Positions 1,733 through 9,832 of a DNA stretch of 10,307 nucleotides are shown here, piece by piece. The first letter of the stretch is position 1, and every line of letters begins with the position of its first letter. Source of the stretch: a bacterium. GTDB taxonomy: Bacteria > NPL-UPA2 > JAUVJM01. The position numbers and the translations under genes are program-made. The notes beneath the pieces are model-generated. The model was not told the origin of the DNA. It saw only the letters and a list, made by a program, of their open reading frames with translations, and did not search any database. The stretch is from the NCBI GenBank assembly GCA_030606215.1, contig JAUWGW010000032.1:1-10307 (forward strand), given 5' to 3'.

Positions 1733-3285
1733 GACTTTAAAAAGGCCTTTTTCAGAATCTTTAATTCATCAACCTTGAACAGTAAGCACATGATGATAAA
1801 ACTTCCTGTGCCTGCGAGAAGTAAAATGGAAAGGTGAGCCAGTTCTTTCAGTGAAGAATCAGCCTGTGGAAGATTTCTCATTATAGCCCAGAGAAAAAAA
1901 CCCATAATGACAGAAGCTGTTAGAATCCTGAGACATGAAAACATAATTTTCTTGCCTTCAAAACTACCTATGCGTTTACGAAGGAAGTGTGAAAGAAGAC
2001 AGAAGTTTATTATAGAAGAAATGGAAGTGGCAAGAGCAAGCCCTCCTATCCTGAGCGGCCACATCAGAGTTAGGTTGAGTATGATGTTGGTTACCATTGC
2101 GAGACTTGCAACTTTCACCGGTGTTTTCATATCCTGAAGTGAATAGAAACTCCTGCTCAGTATATGCACCCCTGCATATGCGAAAAGACCCACACAATAA
2201 TAGAGAAGCGCAATAGAGGTAATCTCCGTTGAATAAGGACCAAATTCATTTCTTTCAAAAAGAATAGAGATTATTGGTTTCCTGAGAATAATCAACCCAG
2301 TTGCAGAAGGAATCATCAAGAAGAAAACTGTGCGAAGTCCGAAAGATACAGTCTCACCCAGAGTGCGCAAATCATTTTTTGAGGAAGAAACTGCCATCTT
2401 AGGGAAAATTGCCGTCGCCATCGCAAGCCCAAATATAGCAAGCGGAAATTGCATGAGACGGTTTGCATACCAGAGAGCCGCAATTGCTCCCTTTCCAACT
2501 ATTGATTCAAATGAGGCACATATCCCATCTACAAATATGTTTATCTGATAAATCCCAACCCCAAGAGTAGCTGGCAGCATAAGCAGGGCTATTTTCTTAA
2601 CCAGTGGATGATAAAGAATAAATTTTCTCCCAATAGGCATTCCCTTCTTAATAGCTGTAATCACCTGAATCCCAAGCTGTCCCACACCGCCAATTATGAC
2701 AGCAATCGCAAGACCGATAACCGGCTCATCTACCTTCCTTATAAAGAAAACGAGAAAAGTAAGCATGGATACATTCAGAATGATTGGAGCAAGTGCAGGA
2801 GCAGCGAAATGATGTAGTGAATTAAGGATTCCCATCATAAGAGCCGCTAAAGCAATAAAAAAAAGATATGGGAACATTATTCTGAGAAGTCTTGAGGTAA
2901 GTTCAATTTTTCCAGGGGTGTCGGCGAAACCCGGAACAATTATTCTGGTAATTAGAGGAGAGAAAATTACTCCCACAAGAACTATTCCTGCGAGCACAAT
3001 GGCAAGACTATTGAATACAGAAATCGCCAGCTTCCATGCCTCATCTTTCCCTTTCCTGGAAAGTTCGTCGGTGAAGACAGGGATAAAACTCGCACTCAGC
3101 GCCCCTTCACCAAAAAGTCTGCGCATGAGATTTGGAATACGGAAAGCCGCAAAGAAAGTCTGTGCAAAAATCCCTGTGCCAAAAAAGTTTGCAATAAGAA
3201 CATCTCTTAAGAATCCAAGTATACGACTTCCAAGTGTTGCTATACCTATTCCTGTTGCACTCCTTGCAATTTTTACACCTTCCAT
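1729..3285 (-). CDS. murJ: Lipid II flippase MurJ (MviN family)
   Basis: A polytopic inner membrane protein of the MOP/MviN family that flips the peptidoglycan precursor lipid II to the periplasmic face. About 518 residues with many hydrophobic segments, matching the usual 14-helix core. The N-terminal family signature is clear: GSRILGFLRD near 20-29, then FAAFRIPNLMRRLFGEGALS near 46-65, followed by SFIPVF. These arginines lie in the conserved cavity region of MurJ. I prefer the ATG at 3285, which overlaps the transporter's stop as TGATG; a TTG one codon earlier (3288) is the alternative. No strong ribosome binding site is visible, so translation probably depends on coupling to the efflux gene upstream. 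Its 3' end overlaps the UvrC-like gene as ATGA. Location in an efflux/DNA-repair cluster, rather than with cell-wall genes, is unusual. Confidence 0.95.
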   Translation of the reverse strand: MEGVKIARSATGIGIATLGSRILGFLRDVLIANFFGTGIFAQTFFAAFRIPNLMRRLFGEGALSASFIPVFTDELSRKGKDEAWKLAISVFNSLAIVLAGIVLVGVIFSPLITRIIVPGFADTPGKIELTSRLLRIMFPYLFFIALAALMMGILNSLHHFAAPALAPIILNVSMLTFLVFFIRKVDEPVIGLAIAVIIGGVGQLGIQVITAIKKGMPIGRKFILYHPLVKKIALLMLPATLGVGIYQINIFVDGICASFESIVGKGAIAALWYANRLMQFPLAIFGLAMATAIFPKMAVSSSKNDLRTLGETVSFGLRTVFFLMIPSATGLIILRKPIISILFERNEFGPYSTEITSIALLYYCVGLFAYAGVHILSRSFYSLQDMKTPVKVASLAMVTNIILNLTLMWPLRIGGLALATSISSIINFCLLSHFLRKRIGSFEGKKIMFSCLRILTASVIMGFFLWAIMRNLPQADSSLKELAHLSILLLAGTGSFIIMCLLFKVDELKILKKAFLKS

Positions 3286-6200
3286 CAAATATGTAACCGT
3301 TTTTTCATCCTGCTGCTGAGATTATCTAAGACGCTGTAGACCACAGGCATGATTATCAAGGTAACTATGCTCCCAAAGAGGAGACCTCCCATCACCGCAA
3401 GAGCCAGAGGTCGCCGCATCTCCGCTCCTGAGCCTCCCATAAATACCATAGGGGCAACTCCTAAAATAGTGGTGCAGGTAGTCATCAGAATCGGACGGAA
3501 TCTGACATGGGCTGCTCTTATTATTGCAATCTCCTTCTCCATCCCCTCCTTCCTCAACCTATTTACATAATCAATGAGCACAATTCCGTTATTAACTACA
3601 ATCCCGGAAAGCATAATAATTCCGATGAGGGCGTTAACCGAGAGATTTATCCCGCTCAGGAACAGCGTCCACAGCACTCCAACTAAAGCAAACGGGATGG
3701 AGAACATAATGACAAATGGGTAGAGCAAAGATTCAAACTGAGCCGCCATGATCATATACACTAACAGTACAGCCAGGAGGAAAGCAATGCCAAGGCTTGC
3801 AAAGGATTCCATCATATCCTCGTATGAGCCGCCATACTCAATAAAATATCCTGAGGGCATCTTAAGTCCGGTTAACCTGTTTCTTATCTCTTCCATTATG
3901 TGCCCCAAATCTCTCCGCTCGCTGATATTGGCTAAAATACTGACCTTTCTCTTTTGATTCTCCCTGACAATCTCGCTCGGACCGGTAGTCTTGTCTATTT
4001 TTGCTATGTCACCTAACTGCACTTCTATGCCCTTTGGAGTGAGAATGGGAATCCTTTTTATGTCGGAGATAGAGAGACGGTCATCCTCTCTCAACCTCAC
4101 TCTGACATCAATCTCCTCCCCCTCTTCTTCAAATCTGGTAGCAATCTTTCCTGCTATAGCCGCCTCTAAAACTGATGCCATCTCCCCTATGCCCAATCCA
4201 TACTGAGCAGACTTTTCCCGGTCAAACTTAATCTGCATCTCCGGACTACCATAGGTAAAGGTTTCTTCTACATCCCTTAACCCTTCTATTCCTTCTATTC
4301 TCTTCCTCGCCTTCTTAGACAACCCGGTTAGAATAGGAAGATGCTTCCCATAAATTTTTACCTCTACAGGTTTGCCTTCCCCACCTCCCATAGACATAGT
4401 CTGCAGATTTGTGAAATCAGCTTTCTCTATCTGGGGGAAAATGGAAATCTCCTCCCGAATTTCTTCTATTACCTCCGGAGTAGTTCTCCTCCGCTCACCC
4501 GCTTCTACTAATCTCACAATGACCATTGCTTCATGTGAAGCTAAAGTCTCCTGACCTGAACCGCCTCCCGCTACCCCCACCACAACTTGCTCACTCTCTA
4601 ATTCTGGAAGCGAAACCAGAATTTTCTCTATCTCCTTAACCACCTCATTGGTTTCCTCTAACTTTGTCCCCTCCGGAAGAGCAATCCCAATCATAAACAT
4701 CCGGTCATTTGCAGTAGGCATAAATTCCTTCCCTATGGGAAAAATCAAAAGAAGGCTCAAACCAAATAGGATGATAGCAGCCATAATCGTCTTTCCGGGA
4801 TGGGTAATGGCCCAGGAAAGTATTTCCTTATACTTGTCCCTCATTTTCCAGGGCTTCTCCTCCTCCCTTCTATATATGGCTACTCTTAATATCTTCGAAG
4901 CCATCATTGGAACCAGAGTTAAAGCAAAAAACAGGGAAGCAAGTAGAGAATAGCTGACCGTAAGAGCAAGCTCTCTAAATATTCTCGCCGCAATCCCGGT
5001 TGTAAAAGCAATGGGGACAAATACTCCAATGGTAGTAAATGTAGAAGCAATTATGGGCGCTGCTACCTCACTGGCTCCTTTCCGAGCCGCTTCCATTCGG
5101 GATTCCTTTTCCTCCTGCATCCGTCTGAAAACGTTCTCTAAAACTACAATAGAGTTATCTAAAAGCATTCCAATAGCTAAGGCTAACCCGCCTAAGGACA
5201 TCATGTTCAAAGTCATCTCGCTGAAATGAATAGGAATGAATGCGGCTAAAAGGGAGATGGGAATAGCCAGTCCAATAATAATTAGAGGGCGGATGTGTCT
5301 CAAGAAATAGAACAGGATAAAAATAGCTAAAATCCCTCCCCAGAGAGCATTATTTCCTAAATTTCCGATAGCCTTATTAATATACTCTGCCTGGTCAAAT
5401 CCAGTTCTTATTGTTACCCCTTCGGGTAGATGCCTCTCTATTTCTCCAATCTTCTGCCACGCTCTATTACATACCTGAACAGTATTTGTCCCTGCCTGTT
5501 TCATAAGCATTATTCCCACACTGGGCTCTAAATTTGTGCGGTTATAAACCCACTGCTCACCATAGGTATCATAAACCTTAGCCGCATTGCCTAAGTAAAT
5601 GGGAACTCCATTCCTCGTAGTTAAAATTATCTTTTCCAGTTCCTCTACTTTCTCAAACTTTCCCCTGGCCCGGATTAGATAATCCTTATATCCCTCTTTC
5701 AAATGTCCGGAGGTCGAATCAATATTTTCAGACGATAATTTCTGGATAACCTGAGCAATAGATATATTGTAGGCAGATAGCAATTCTCTATCCAGTGAGA
5801 CCAGAATCTCCCGCTCTGCGCCGGCGAAGATTACTACCCAGGCCACACCCTCCACCGATTCCAACTGCTTCTCCATATAATCATCTGCTATCTCCTTCAA
5901 CTGGTGTGTATCCATGTCCTTGCCAGAGAGAGATAGGAACATGAGAGGCATATCTGCCGGGTTATACTTCATTATTATCGGTCTTTCACTGTCCTCGGGC
6001 AGACCCCAGAATCCGGTTCCTATCTCATCTAACTTTTCTCTTATGTCCTGGCAGGCTGAATCCATATCCGTCCCCCAATCAAACTCAACCCGGACGATGG
6101 AGACACCTCTCTTAGAAACGGAATAGATATTCTTCACTCCGTCCACGCGGTTTACCGAACTCTCAATAAGTCGTGTGACTGAAGCCTCAATCTCCTCTGG

Positions 6201-6365
6201 ACCTATCCCTTCATATTCAGTCATTACAGCGGCTACGGGAAATTCTAAATCAGGCAGCAAGTCTATAGGCAGGCGGGAAACAGATACTATTCCCAACACC
6301 ACAATAATCAGAATTAGCATTAGAGCAGTGACCGGTTTTCTCACCGAAAAATCAGTAATAAACAT
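3285..6365 (-). CDS. RND family multidrug efflux transporter, inner membrane subunit (AcrB/HAE1-like)
   Basis: A proton-driven pump protein of 1026 residues, the usual length. The layout is classical: TM1 near 12-30, a large periplasmic loop to about 335, TM2-6 to about 490, TM7 near 525-543, a second periplasmic loop to about 855, then TM8-12. Family marks include FSVRKPV at the N-terminus, FPVAAVMTEYEGIGPEEIE near 42-60 and MAAQFESLLYPFVIMFSIPF near 873-892. In TM4 the proton-relay motif reads GMLLDNSIVVLEN, so D403 is present but the second Asp of AcrB (DD) is N404. In TM10 the AcrB lysine is replaced by VVNNG (N925, N926), a pattern seen in HAE1-like subfamilies outside classical AcrB. 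Substrate cannot be told. The start ATG directly follows the stop of the membrane fusion gene; the stop overlaps the murJ start. Confidence 0.95.
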   Translation of the reverse strand: MFITDFSVRKPVTALMLILIIVVLGIVSVSRLPIDLLPDLEFPVAAVMTEYEGIGPEEIEASVTRLIESSVNRVDGVKNIYSVSKRGVSIVRVEFDWGTDMDSACQDIREKLDEIGTGFWGLPEDSERPIIMKYNPADMPLMFLSLSGKDMDTHQLKEIADDYMEKQLESVEGVAWVVIFAGAEREILVSLDRELLSAYNISIAQVIQKLSSENIDSTSGHLKEGYKDYLIRARGKFEKVEELEKIILTTRNGVPIYLGNAAKVYDTYGEQWVYNRTNLEPSVGIMLMKQAGTNTVQVCNRAWQKIGEIERHLPEGVTIRTGFDQAEYINKAIGNLGNNALWGGILAIFILFYFLRHIRPLIIIGLAIPISLLAAFIPIHFSEMTLNMMSLGGLALAIGMLLDNSIVVLENVFRRMQEEKESRMEAARKGASEVAAPIIASTFTTIGVFVPIAFTTGIAARIFRELALTVSYSLLASLFFALTLVPMMASKILRVAIYRREEEKPWKMRDKYKEILSWAITHPGKTIMAAIILFGLSLLLIFPIGKEFMPTANDRMFMIGIALPEGTKLEETNEVVKEIEKILVSLPELESEQVVVGVAGGGSGQETLASHEAMVIVRLVEAGERRRTTPEVIEEIREEISIFPQIEKADFTNLQTMSMGGGEGKPVEVKIYGKHLPILTGLSKKARKRIEGIEGLRDVEETFTYGSPEMQIKFDREKSAQYGLGIGEMASVLEAAIAGKIATRFEEEGEEIDVRVRLREDDRLSISDIKRIPILTPKGIEVQLGDIAKIDKTTGPSEIVRENQKRKVSILANISERRDLGHIMEEIRNRLTGLKMPSGYFIEYGGSYEDMMESFASLGIAFLLAVLLVYMIMAAQFESLLYPFVIMFSIPFALVGVLWTLFLSGINLSVNALIGIIMLSGIVVNNGIVLIDYVNRLRKEGMEKEIAIIRAAHVRFRPILMTTCTTILGVAPMVFMGGSGAEMRRPLALAVMGGLLFGSIVTLIIMPVVYSVLDNLSSRMKKRLHI

Positions 6366-7472
6366 TTACTTTATCCTCACTCTGTCACCGTTCTTCAGAC
6401 CATACGCTCCCTCTATAATGACCTTTTCTCTCTCTTTCAACCCGGATGCTATTTCCACCATCCCTCCATTCTCCACACCCGTTTTCACTTCCCTCAATCT
6501 GGCGATACCTTGCTCCATTATAAACAACCTTTTCTTTCCATCCTGGTAGATTACCGCCTTTATGGGAACAATCAAAACATTCTCATGCTTCTCAATAACT
6601 ATCTCTACCCGGGCAAACATTCCCGGTTTGAGGAGATGCTCCGGATTGATAATTTCTATTTCTATCGGGGCAGTTCTGCTTAGAAGGTCCAAGACAGGCG
6701 AAATATTGGATACCTTACCTATAAAAACTTTATTTGGATAGGCATCCACCTTAACCTTTGCCTCCTGCCCTATCTTTATGCCAACTATATCCCTCTCGTT
6801 AACATTGACCATAACCTTAATTGTATCCATATCTACAATAGTAACCAGAGGGGCATTCTTCGTCATTGAGGCATCTATAATCATCTCCCCTTCATCAATG
6901 AACTTCCTGGCAATCGTCCCCTTAATGGGCGCGTAAATTTTAGAATCGGCAAGGTGGAGTCTGGCTAAGCCTAAAGCGGCTTTCAGTTCCTTTGCCTGAG
7001 CCTGGGCGCTCCTATAAGCAGTGTCTGTATTATCCATTTTCTGTCGAGAAACTGCATCCTTTTCAAACAGGCTTTTTATCCGCTCATAATCCTTGCGAAG
7101 CTTCTTCACATTTATTTCCGCCGCTTCTAAAGATGCCTCTAACCTTTCTACCTGCAGGATTAGCTTTTCCTTCTCAATCTCAGCGATGAGCTCACCCTTT
7201 TTTACTTTATCTCCAATATCAACTGCAATTCTTTCTACCTTCCCACTCACCTTGGAATACACAGTAACCTCGTGCTGAGGCTCAATATCCCCGGTAAGAG
7301 AAAGTTTATCCTCAACAGTCCCCAGCCCTACTTCTGCTGCTCTTACCTGGACCTCCATCACTTCCCCTGCTTTTTCCTCTCCCATCTTTTTAGATTCAAT
7401 AGCTTTATACACTCTATATCCCACCCCGCCCAAAAGGACTAAAACCACTATCAATATAATTAATTTTCTCAT
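6366..7472 (-). CDS. RND efflux periplasmic adaptor (membrane fusion protein)
   Basis: Links the inner membrane RND pump to the outer membrane channel. The 368-residue protein has an N-terminal hydrophobic anchor (about 4-19) with no lipobox cysteine, so it is probably membrane-anchored rather than a lipoprotein. The split lipoyl domain is seen at about 65-99 (YSKVSGKVERI, then GDKVKKGELIAEIE) and 173-198 (DSKIYAPIKGTIARK). Between them lies an alpha-hairpin coiled coil, about 100-172. A beta-barrel domain (about 210-295, including LKPGMFARVEI) and a C-terminal membrane-proximal domain (VPIKAVIYQDGKKRLFI onward) follow. Its ATG overlaps the stop of the channel gene as ATGA, with GAGAGGG just upstream as ribosome binding site. 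It ends with TAA immediately before the transporter's ATG. Order channel-adaptor-pump gives a complete tripartite set. Confidence 0.95.
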   Translation of the reverse strand: MRKLIILIVVLVLLGGVGYRVYKAIESKKMGEEKAGEVMEVQVRAAEVGLGTVEDKLSLTGDIEPQHEVTVYSKVSGKVERIAVDIGDKVKKGELIAEIEKEKLILQVERLEASLEAAEINVKKLRKDYERIKSLFEKDAVSRQKMDNTDTAYRSAQAQAKELKAALGLARLHLADSKIYAPIKGTIARKFIDEGEMIIDASMTKNAPLVTIVDMDTIKVMVNVNERDIVGIKIGQEAKVKVDAYPNKVFIGKVSNISPVLDLLSRTAPIEIEIINPEHLLKPGMFARVEIVIEKHENVLIVPIKAVIYQDGKKRLFIMEQGIARLREVKTGVENGGMVEIASGLKEREKVIIEGAYGLKNGDRVRIK

Positions 7473-8788
7473 CTACCCTCTCCTATCCGCCCCACAGCCC
7501 TTTCCAATGCCGCCAGAGCAAGGTTATAATCATATAGAGCCTGATAATAATCACTGCGGGTTTGACTCAACATAGTCTGGGCATCCAGCACATCGGTGTT
7601 AGTGGCCATGCCTTCTTTAAACCGCAAAGACGTATCCTGGAAATTTCTCTCCGCAGATCTAATCGCCTGCTCCTGCACTTTTATCTTTTCTTTAGCCGCC
7701 AACAAATCAAGATAAGCCTGGCGGACTTCAAGTTCTATACCGTTCTTTAAAAGCACGAAGCTATTTCTGAGTTGTTCATGCTGCGCTTTTGTTCTCCTGA
7801 ACTCATTTCTGCTTTCTCCCCAATCCCATATATTCATGTTCACTTGAATTACCGCACTCCAAGATTCTTCCCACTCATCTACAGGGATTTCTGCTCCTTT
7901 CTGCCTATCCCAATTCCCTATAAACATAACCTGAGGAAAGAAATTAGAGCGGGCAATTTTTACTCCCTCTTCTGCCATACTCAATCTACTCTTCATTTCT
8001 CCTATTTCTGGTCTATTATCAAAAGCCTCTTCGGCTAAAGAAGGAAAATCAAAATTTATCTCCTCAAAACTCAGTATATCTTCAAGGTTCACTTCCGTCC
8101 CCATGTTTCTGTTTAAAAGGTTATTAAAATAAGATTTGGCTAACTTTACTCCATTATTTGCATTTATCAAATTCTGCTTTGCATTGGCCAAAGCAACCTT
8201 TGCTTTCAAAACATCTACTTGTGGAACCATCCCCTCCCTGAAGAAATTTTCCACGACCTCAAGATGCGCAGTAACCTGGTTCACCGCTTCCTCTGCTACT
8301 TTCTCCAACTTCTCCATTTCAAGAACCTTAAAGTAGGATTTCTTCACTTCAAAGACTAAATCGTTTTTTACCTTTTCAAAATAACTTTGGCTTGCCTCAA
8401 AATTCTTTTTCTGCATCCTGTAGAGAGAGGTAATTTTGCCTCCTGTGAAAAGAGGCTGCATAACGCCTAAATTGTAATCATAAATTTCATCCCCCTTTTC
8501 CTCATCGAGTCTCGTATAGGAAGAAGAGGTATAAATCTTGGGGAAGAAATTACTTAAAGCTTTCCCTCTCTCCGCTTCCGCTTCCTCTATTTTCCCTCTT
8601 GCAACCATTATGGAAGGATTATTTCTCAGGGCTTCGGAAATACTTTCATCAAGGGTAAGACTTTCCGCAAGACAAGGAAAATGCAAAGTGCAAAGTGCAA
8701 GATGCAAAACGACAACGCGAAATACAAAATTTTTAGTTTTAATACTAATTTGGGATTTTTGCTCTTTTATATTTAATTTTCTATTCAT
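7469..8788 (-). CDS. TolC-like outer membrane efflux channel protein
   Basis: Outer membrane factor of the tripartite pump. The mature part carries two tandem OEP repeats: LTLDESISEALRNNPSI opens the first, and SLAEEAFDNRPEIGEMKSRL the second, each followed by long amphipathic helices (for example AKVALANAKQNLINAN) and a beta-strand segment (GVMQPLFTGGKI; VNMNIWDWGESRNEF). I prefer the ATG at 8788, which has AAGG seven bases upstream; an in-frame ATG at 8809 would add seven residues. The N-terminus is a long polar, Lys-rich stretch, then a hydrophobic core VVVLHLALCTLHF and a likely signal peptidase I site after CLA. This core is encoded by a heptanucleotide repeat, and no Met lies between it and the mature protein, so the gene must use it to be exported. 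First gene of the overlapping cluster; the stop overlaps the adaptor start. Confidence 0.93.
   Translation of the reverse strand: MNRKLNIKEQKSQISIKTKNFVFRVVVLHLALCTLHFPCLAESLTLDESISEALRNNPSIMVARGKIEEAEAERGKALSNFFPKIYTSSSYTRLDEEKGDEIYDYNLGVMQPLFTGGKITSLYRMQKKNFEASQSYFEKVKNDLVFEVKKSYFKVLEMEKLEKVAEEAVNQVTAHLEVVENFFREGMVPQVDVLKAKVALANAKQNLINANNGVKLAKSYFNNLLNRNMGTEVNLEDILSFEEINFDFPSLAEEAFDNRPEIGEMKSRLSMAEEGVKIARSNFFPQVMFIGNWDRQKGAEIPVDEWEESWSAVIQVNMNIWDWGESRNEFRRTKAQHEQLRNSFVLLKNGIELEVRQAYLDLLAAKEKIKVQEQAIRSAERNFQDTSLRFKEGMATNTDVLDAQTMLSQTRSDYYQALYDYNLALAALERAVGRIGEGR
8682..8785. repeat. Heptanucleotide repeat tract inside the 5' end of the tolC-like gene
   Basis: Four tandem 7-bp units with consensus TGCAAAG lie at 8682-8709 on the plus strand: two exact copies, then TGCAAGA and TGCAAAA. 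They continue into an A/T-rich stretch to about 8785 with a looser 7-bp rhythm (ACAAAAT, CTAATTT, GGGATTT). The tract looks like an intergenic interspersed repeat but is coding here. It specifies most of the signal peptide of the channel protein. Read on the minus strand the core is TTTGCAC repeated, which has no stop in any frame and gives the same cyclic peptide (Leu-His-Phe-Ala-Leu-Cys-Thr) in all three. Confidence 0.7.
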
Positions 8789-8832
8789 ATTCTTCCCTTC
8801 TCTCCGCATCTTTAATCATTCCTGCCCTTTTT

Positions 8833-8892
8833 GTCATTCCTGCGGAAGCAGGAATCCAAGCAGGAATAGATTCCCATTTTCATGGGAATGAC
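8833..8892. repeat. Twin-hairpin palindromic repeat element (REP/MITE-like)
   Basis: A compact 60-bp element bounded by terminal inverted repeats GTCATTCC (8833-8840) and GGAATGAC (8885-8892). Inside are two perfect 8-bp hairpins, each with a 4-base loop: ATTCCTGC/GCAGGAAT at 8836-8855 and ATTCCCAT/ATGGGAAT at 8870-8889. A direct copy of TCATTCCTGC (8834-8843) also occurs just outside, at 8816-8825. The form is that of the GTCATTCC-type interspersed repeats common in many bacterial genomes. It fills most of the gap between the lipid A deacylase gene and the tolC-like gene, so it lies in the leader of the efflux operon. Neither hairpin is followed by a T-run on the minus strand, so it is not an obvious terminator. 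Confidence 0.75.
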
Positions 8893-8906
8893 AGAAAACA
8901 CACTTC

Positions 8907-9753: not shown

Positions 9754-9758
9754 AAAAC

Positions 9759-9832
9759 AGCTTTCAGCCACCAGTCGTCAGCCTTCAGCCAACATATTAT
9801 TGCTGATAGCTGAAAGCTGATTGCTGATAGCC
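9759..9832. repeat. Inverted repeat made of heptanucleotide units in the 23S-5S spacer
   Basis: The right arm (9802-9832) is four near-copies of a 7-bp unit, GCTGATA/GCTGAAA/GCTGATT. The left arm (9759-9790) reads as the complement of similar units (GGCTGAA, GGCTGAC). The arms match at about 22 of 30 positions and are separated by an A/T-rich loop (AACATATTATT). In the rRNA precursor this would fold into a long imperfect hairpin between the 23S and 5S. The GCTGATA unit also occurs near position 154. Confidence 0.75.

Follow-up and report, generated by a model that had tools for sequence, protein, structure and literature searches.

Heptanucleotide simple sequence repeats are known from bacterial genomes, among them GGGAATC in Xanthomonas and GGGGAYT in Nostoc (Mrazek 2007, as cited in PMC4692102 and PMC4679880), and polymerase slippage has already been proposed as the origin of bacterial heptamers (again as cited in PMC4692102 and PMC4679880). 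For arrays of a further heptamer, TAACTGA, the account in PMC4679880 recognises the repeating heptapeptide LSVISYQ and places some of the arrays within ORFs, mostly at protein ends. Heptanucleotide repeats and their heptapeptides are thus already known (PMC4692102, PMC4679880), as is in-frame repeat DNA in housekeeping genes (PMC2996958).

Here we describe a heptanucleotide array inside the N-terminal coding region of a tolC-like gene. Like the heptanucleotide repeats of Mrazek, which as cited are over-represented in bacterial genomes, it is a short tandem 7-mer of few and sequence-variable units. The window, i.e. the whole stretch of DNA analysed, is one complete contig of 10,307 bp; the host belongs to a small phylum, represented by nine genomes in our comparison set.

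An efflux operon and its channel gene

The channel gene is followed by genes encoding a membrane-fusion protein, an RND pump and then MurJ (Table 1). Its OEP domains, together with an operon that includes a fusion protein and an RND pump, identify the product as an efflux channel of the TolC/OEP type; SilC, CmeC, OprN and TolC are its solved relatives, and its closest named relative is a protein from an Omnitrophota MAG (58% identity).

Table 1. Positions in the window of the efflux operon, the putative signal peptide and the array
Feature	Position	Strand	Evidence
tolC-like outer-membrane efflux channel (OEP family, PF02321)	7469..8788	-	hmmscan, E 1.4e-72
Putative Sec signal peptide of the channel, 41 residues, MNRKLNIKEQKSQISIKTKNFVFRVVVLHLALCTLHFPCLA	8666..8788	-	hydropathy, orthologue alignment; cleavage site inferred
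Heptanucleotide array, 4.6 imperfect copies of TGCAAAR (coding strand TTTGCAY)	8678..8709	-	TRF, pattern search, translation
Membrane-fusion protein (HlyD/CusB-type), same operon, HlyD_D23	6366..7472	-	hmmscan
RND pump (ACR_tran), same operon	3285..6365	-	hmmscan, E 4.5e-269

Directly upstream of tolC, at positions 8832-8893, lies a palindrome (GTCATTCC...GGAATGACA) that resembles common ATTCC/GGAAT repeats; within 120 bp, the 741-kb genome sample described below has no other such pair. Elsewhere in the window, positions 998-1732 encode a UvrC-like protein of 244 residues with the GIY-YIG and UVR parts only, and this ORF overlaps a methyltransferase-like ORF at 678-1001 that carries an MGMT DNA-binding domain.

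A short and decayed tandem heptamer

The array (AAAATGCAAAGTGCAAAGTGCAAGATGCAAAA) has the head-to-tail 7-bp units, above chance, of a heptanucleotide simple sequence repeat, with a match of 84% among its 4.6 units (TRF). In the 10,307-bp window, the pattern TGCAAAGTGCAAAG with up to two mismatches gave two matches against an expected 0.13. We also read directly stretches totalling 741 kb, just under half of the 1.52-Mb genome (34 contigs), and found five period-7 arrays with a TRF score of at least 40; none was present in three third-order Markov sequences simulated at a size equal to that of the sample. The array is a genuine tandem 7-mer, though short and decayed.

These dimensions bear on whether the array is a contingency (phase-variation) locus, at which gain or loss of a 7-bp unit would switch the efflux channel on and off. 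Seven is not divisible by three, the array occupies the 5' part of the coding sequence, and Haemophilus HMW adhesins are, in the account of PMC8262952, switched by heptanucleotide arrays. Such a role is nevertheless quite improbable here: a long, near-perfect array able to slip is what a phase-variation locus has, whereas short imperfect arrays such as this one slip little, and the array is absent from the orthologue in G001, a genome of the same family.

We found by translation that the pure unit TTTGCAC encodes the cyclic heptapeptide FALCTLH in all three frames without a stop, just as the original prediction had claimed (there written LHFALCT); the opposite strand reads VQSAKCK, likewise without a stop. 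Freedom from stops on both strands is a property of 50% of all 7-mers and is not rare. Among stop-free 7-mers, TTTGCAC ranks at the 90th and TTTGCAT at the 96th percentile of hydrophobicity, and it is hydrophobicity, rather than freedom from stops, that is the less common trait of these units. The further proposal that such a repeat is a ready-made hydrophobic segment whatever its frame holds inside an array but breaks down beyond it: frame-neutrality is confined to the interior, and each 7-bp unit gained or lost shifts the downstream frame unless it is compensated.

Contribution of the array to the putative signal peptide

Residues 27-37 of the channel precursor (VLHLALCTLHF) are encoded by the array, so that the earlier statement that the hydrophobic core is translated from tandem 7-bp units applies to these residues; it does not extend to the flanking FVFRVV (before) and PCLA (after), neither of which is a recognisable repeat. 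The array supplies most of the channel's hydrophobic core, without the first residues of the core or the cleavage region. Judged by hydropathy and residue rules, a rule of thumb rather than a trained predictor, the N-terminus has the parts of a Sec signal peptide, namely a Lys/Arg-rich n-region, a hydrophobic core and C-L-A before E, with small residues at -3 and -1; cleavage is likely before ESLTLDES. The array-encoded stretch is signal-like in hydropathy: the best 12-residue value of the N-terminus is 2.32, which ranks at the 83rd percentile among 237 ORFs sampled from 381 kb of the genome. The corresponding maximum in the G001 orthologue is 2.82, the array-encoded core, which includes two His and one Cys, being the less hydrophobic of the two.

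From ATG 8788 to the mature domain there is no Met codon besides ATG 8788 itself, which bears out the claim that no methionine lies between the core and the mature domain. TTG codons, which are possible starts, do occur in frame within the core and array. The real start could then be downstream (e.g. at a TTG inside the array), the upstream frame being open by luck, the array non-coding and the export signal missing or of another kind; many TGCAAAR arrays elsewhere, notably in genome G234, do lie outside recognisable genes. We consider this unlikely. Any downstream start would leave a truncated core with no positively charged n-region, and for the TTG codons inside the core we saw neither such an n-region nor a Shine-Dalgarno-like sequence. 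Ahead of ATG 8788, on the other hand, stands AGAAGGGAAGAAT, which could plausibly be a Shine-Dalgarno sequence, and the G001 orthologue starts at a similar place, 35 codons before the equivalent mature start. Outer-membrane channels, moreover, require a signal peptide.

A conserved cleavage slot with different cores

The G001 orthologue is 71% identical to the channel over the mature part and also has a fusion-protein neighbour. Alignment with homologues, which had been proposed as a check on whether they carry an unrelated signal peptide or share the exact N-terminus, gave the former result for this same-family protein: its signal, MNKRILYLNHLRQIVNPILLRSLLIILLFRTGVSA, is unrelated to that of the channel, and its mature part then begins EMLTLEES, starting at A|E as in the channel. 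An Omnitrophota relative (L007) has a third kind of signal peptide. The putative cleavage slot is conserved while the core differs and, because the signal peptide of the 71%-identical orthologue is unrelated, the array in this slot is lineage-specific. As far as one close orthologue can give the direction, the pattern fits an array that, on this branch, originated within an earlier core or displaced it.

Heptad units in the host genome

For the TGCAAAR unit, genome-wide statements derive from pattern searches and BLAST alone. Its 14-base double form is present once in the whole genome and, with up to two mismatches allowed, the whole-genome pattern search returned, besides the array, traces of two units each at two places, one on contig 5 and one on contig 6. 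A BLAST search of the whole genome with the 171-bp array region found no second copy, just matches of 14-26 bases. TGCAAAR is therefore not, in this genome, a dispersed non-coding repeat family, which would have many and mostly intergenic copies, and the original prediction of a non-coding repeat family taken over as a secretion signal is unsupported in that form; the absence of the unit from the rest of the genome, named in advance as a finding that would tell against it, is largely what was observed, save for the two traces. The description of such repeats as non-coding fails as well, as arrays lie in frame inside conserved enzymes in several genomes.

Other heptads are present in the host genome. 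Two further arrays lie in the 5S-23S rRNA spacer inside the window (positions 9758-9831), a GCTGAAR-like array on the minus strand followed by GCTGATA on the plus strand; they are face-to-face and could pair as a hairpin. One protein has a CAACTCT array, in frame, between its B12-binding domain and its radical-SAM domain, and the radical-SAM orthologue in G005 (L184) has CTTTCAA units at the place where the host protein (G000) has CAACTCT. In L184, a REP-like palindrome (TCCGCC...GGCGGA) is nested in frame within the heptad array. A TAATTTT array is in frame in another long ORF, and an AGCTATC array adjoins a gene start.

TGCAAAR arrays in enzymes and signal peptides of other genomes

The exact 21-mer (TGCAAAR)x3 was found in 12 of 386 bacterial genomes and in five of the six genomes of one order. 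G234 has 23 matches (overlaps counted), mostly outside recognisable genes. Among Pfam-confirmed genes, in-frame arrays, without exception in the hydrophilic reading, were identified in AsnB, NadC, DapF, MoeA, PdxA, an amidohydrolase and a ROK kinase. The AsnB genes of G006 (L079 1501-1535) and G101 (L126 1501-1528), which belong to distant phyla, carry a TGCAAAA array at the same site, after RGPDDEG, and G101 AsnB has a second array farther along. Relative to the best solved homologue, the array adds six residues to NadC and nine to AsnB. Arrays in coding sequence do not, however, invariably make a protein longer, an idea that we dropped since MoeA and DapF show no visible gain over their best solved homologues.

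Near N-termini, the unit is found in both readings. A TPR lipoprotein, an LptA-like protein and a PorV-like protein have the hydrophilic one in their n-regions, whereas in a multihaem cytochrome (L092) the hydrophobic one lies in the signal core. In the PorV-like protein (L088), a second array, TTACACC TTACACT TTACACG TTACACG, encodes the hydrophobic core LHLTLYTLH. With the channel, L092 and L088, cores spelled by heptads thus occur in three exported proteins that are unrelated to one another and come from three distant genomes. To this extent the original idea of a repeat-derived signal core carries over to two other bacteria. Orientation follows location: among Pfam-backed cases, TGCAAAR has the hydrophobic reading in two of two cores and the hydrophilic reading in 13 of 13 arrays elsewhere (P = 0.0095, by Fisher's exact test), a post hoc and small count that includes the window and scores two DapF arrays at one site separately.

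We found no further arrays in the phylum of the cytochrome genome (G093). Plasmids searched with a polymer of LHFALCT gave weak matches only, and none of 19 stretches on viral contigs was a clear signal-core case. On two viral contigs (L188 9347-9367 and L201 6684-6704), a small protein whose N-terminus resembles a signal peptide has a TGCAAAR array immediately behind the likely cleavage site (CAIFAQ then MQNAKCKVQSAK).

Change of unit at fixed sites

In the order of G101, at one site in NadC (loci L176-L179), the unit is TGCAAAA in G101 and G368, AGTCCAA in G388 and CAGGCTT in G387; at one site in DapF (loci L168-L171), it is TGCAAAA in G101 and AATCAAA in G368 and G388. Position and period are retained at both sites while the heptad unit is swapped between species of one order. 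Slippage of a single array does not give such a swap, which implies some form of replacement. This is the least expected of our observations, and it lies outside the window.

The same sites bear on the possibility that the array came in whole with a repeat element that is mobile or spreads horizontally. The TGCAAAR unit is scattered over distant genomes, and horizontal spread has been proposed by MacGregor for TAACTGA arrays, according to PMC4679880. Different units at one site in related species are, however, unexpected from one element family; the 171-bp region is without a second copy in the host genome; and informal inspection of the array loci revealed no common flank. An origin of this kind is, in our estimation, highly improbable.

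Origin and persistence of heptad arrays

The reading that we favour is that the core of the channel's signal peptide is probably, for the most part, the translation of a decayed heptad array that arose within the export signal of tolC, and that arrays persist in genes where their heptapeptide does no harm or is of use. Slippage or insertion within the N-terminal export signal would have produced the array in this lineage, after the split from the family relative, and the array would have taken the place of, or lengthened, the core of a Sec signal already present, whose start and cleavage slot were retained. Three steps of this account are inferred: a Sec-signal function of the array segment, an origin of the array by slippage, and displacement of an earlier core, as opposed to loss of the array in the relative. 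More generally, heptad arrays would arise in many bacteria and survive within genes at places to which the heptapeptide read in their orientation is suited, the hydrophilic one (NAKCKMQ/VQSAKCK) being kept in loops, linkers and n-regions and the hydrophobic one (LHFALCT/FAFCILH) in signal-peptide cores.

A broader and more tentative idea is that permissive protein sites (enzyme loops, linkers and signal cores) might be long-lived hosts of arrays whose units are replaced. New signal-peptide cores might then be supplied repeatedly and independently, because the chemistry of the heptapeptide selects the unit and orientation that survive.

On sequence evidence, the channel, the enzymes and the other signal peptides may be tangible cases in which simple-repeat DNA has become a working part of a protein. 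Heptad repeats would seem to be raw material for proteins, tolerated and reused in evolution. A rule follows for predicting which arrays genes tolerate: a unit length not divisible by three, no stop, and one hydrophobic and one hydrophilic reading. The change of unit in NadC and DapF, which plain slippage leaves unexplained, makes the origin of heptad repeats testable by comparison of close relatives.

Comparison with known repeats

The open-licence literature searched yielded no account of heptad arrays that serve as signal-peptide cores, none of one unit being exchanged for another at a fixed place in a protein, and nothing on these heptapeptides. The Mrazek repeats, as cited, are G-rich, mostly intergenic and discussed as G-quadruplexes, whereas TGCAAAR is A/T-rich, stop-free on both strands and coding. 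A closer likeness is offered by the TAACTGA arrays of Beggiatoaceae, Cyanobacteria and Bacteroidetes (MacGregor 2015, PMC4679880), in which one heptamer likewise occurs in scattered lineages. Unlike TGCAAAR, these arrays are described as mostly lying just upstream of start codons and as stop-rich in one orientation, and what PMC4679880 relates of them includes neither signal-peptide use nor unit swapping at a site. The RPE of Rickettsia and Wolbachia are similar in that, in the account of PMC2996958, repeat DNA lies in frame in housekeeping genes at tolerated places; RPE, however, are a dispersed palindromic family with several genome copies, while the channel array is a tandem 7-mer without a second copy in its genome. 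Finally, as in the de novo transmembrane segments of yeast (Vakirlis 2020, PMC7005711), T-rich DNA gives rise to hydrophobic protein segments; there, new whole ORFs came from non-genic DNA, whereas here it is the signal core of an established bacterial gene.
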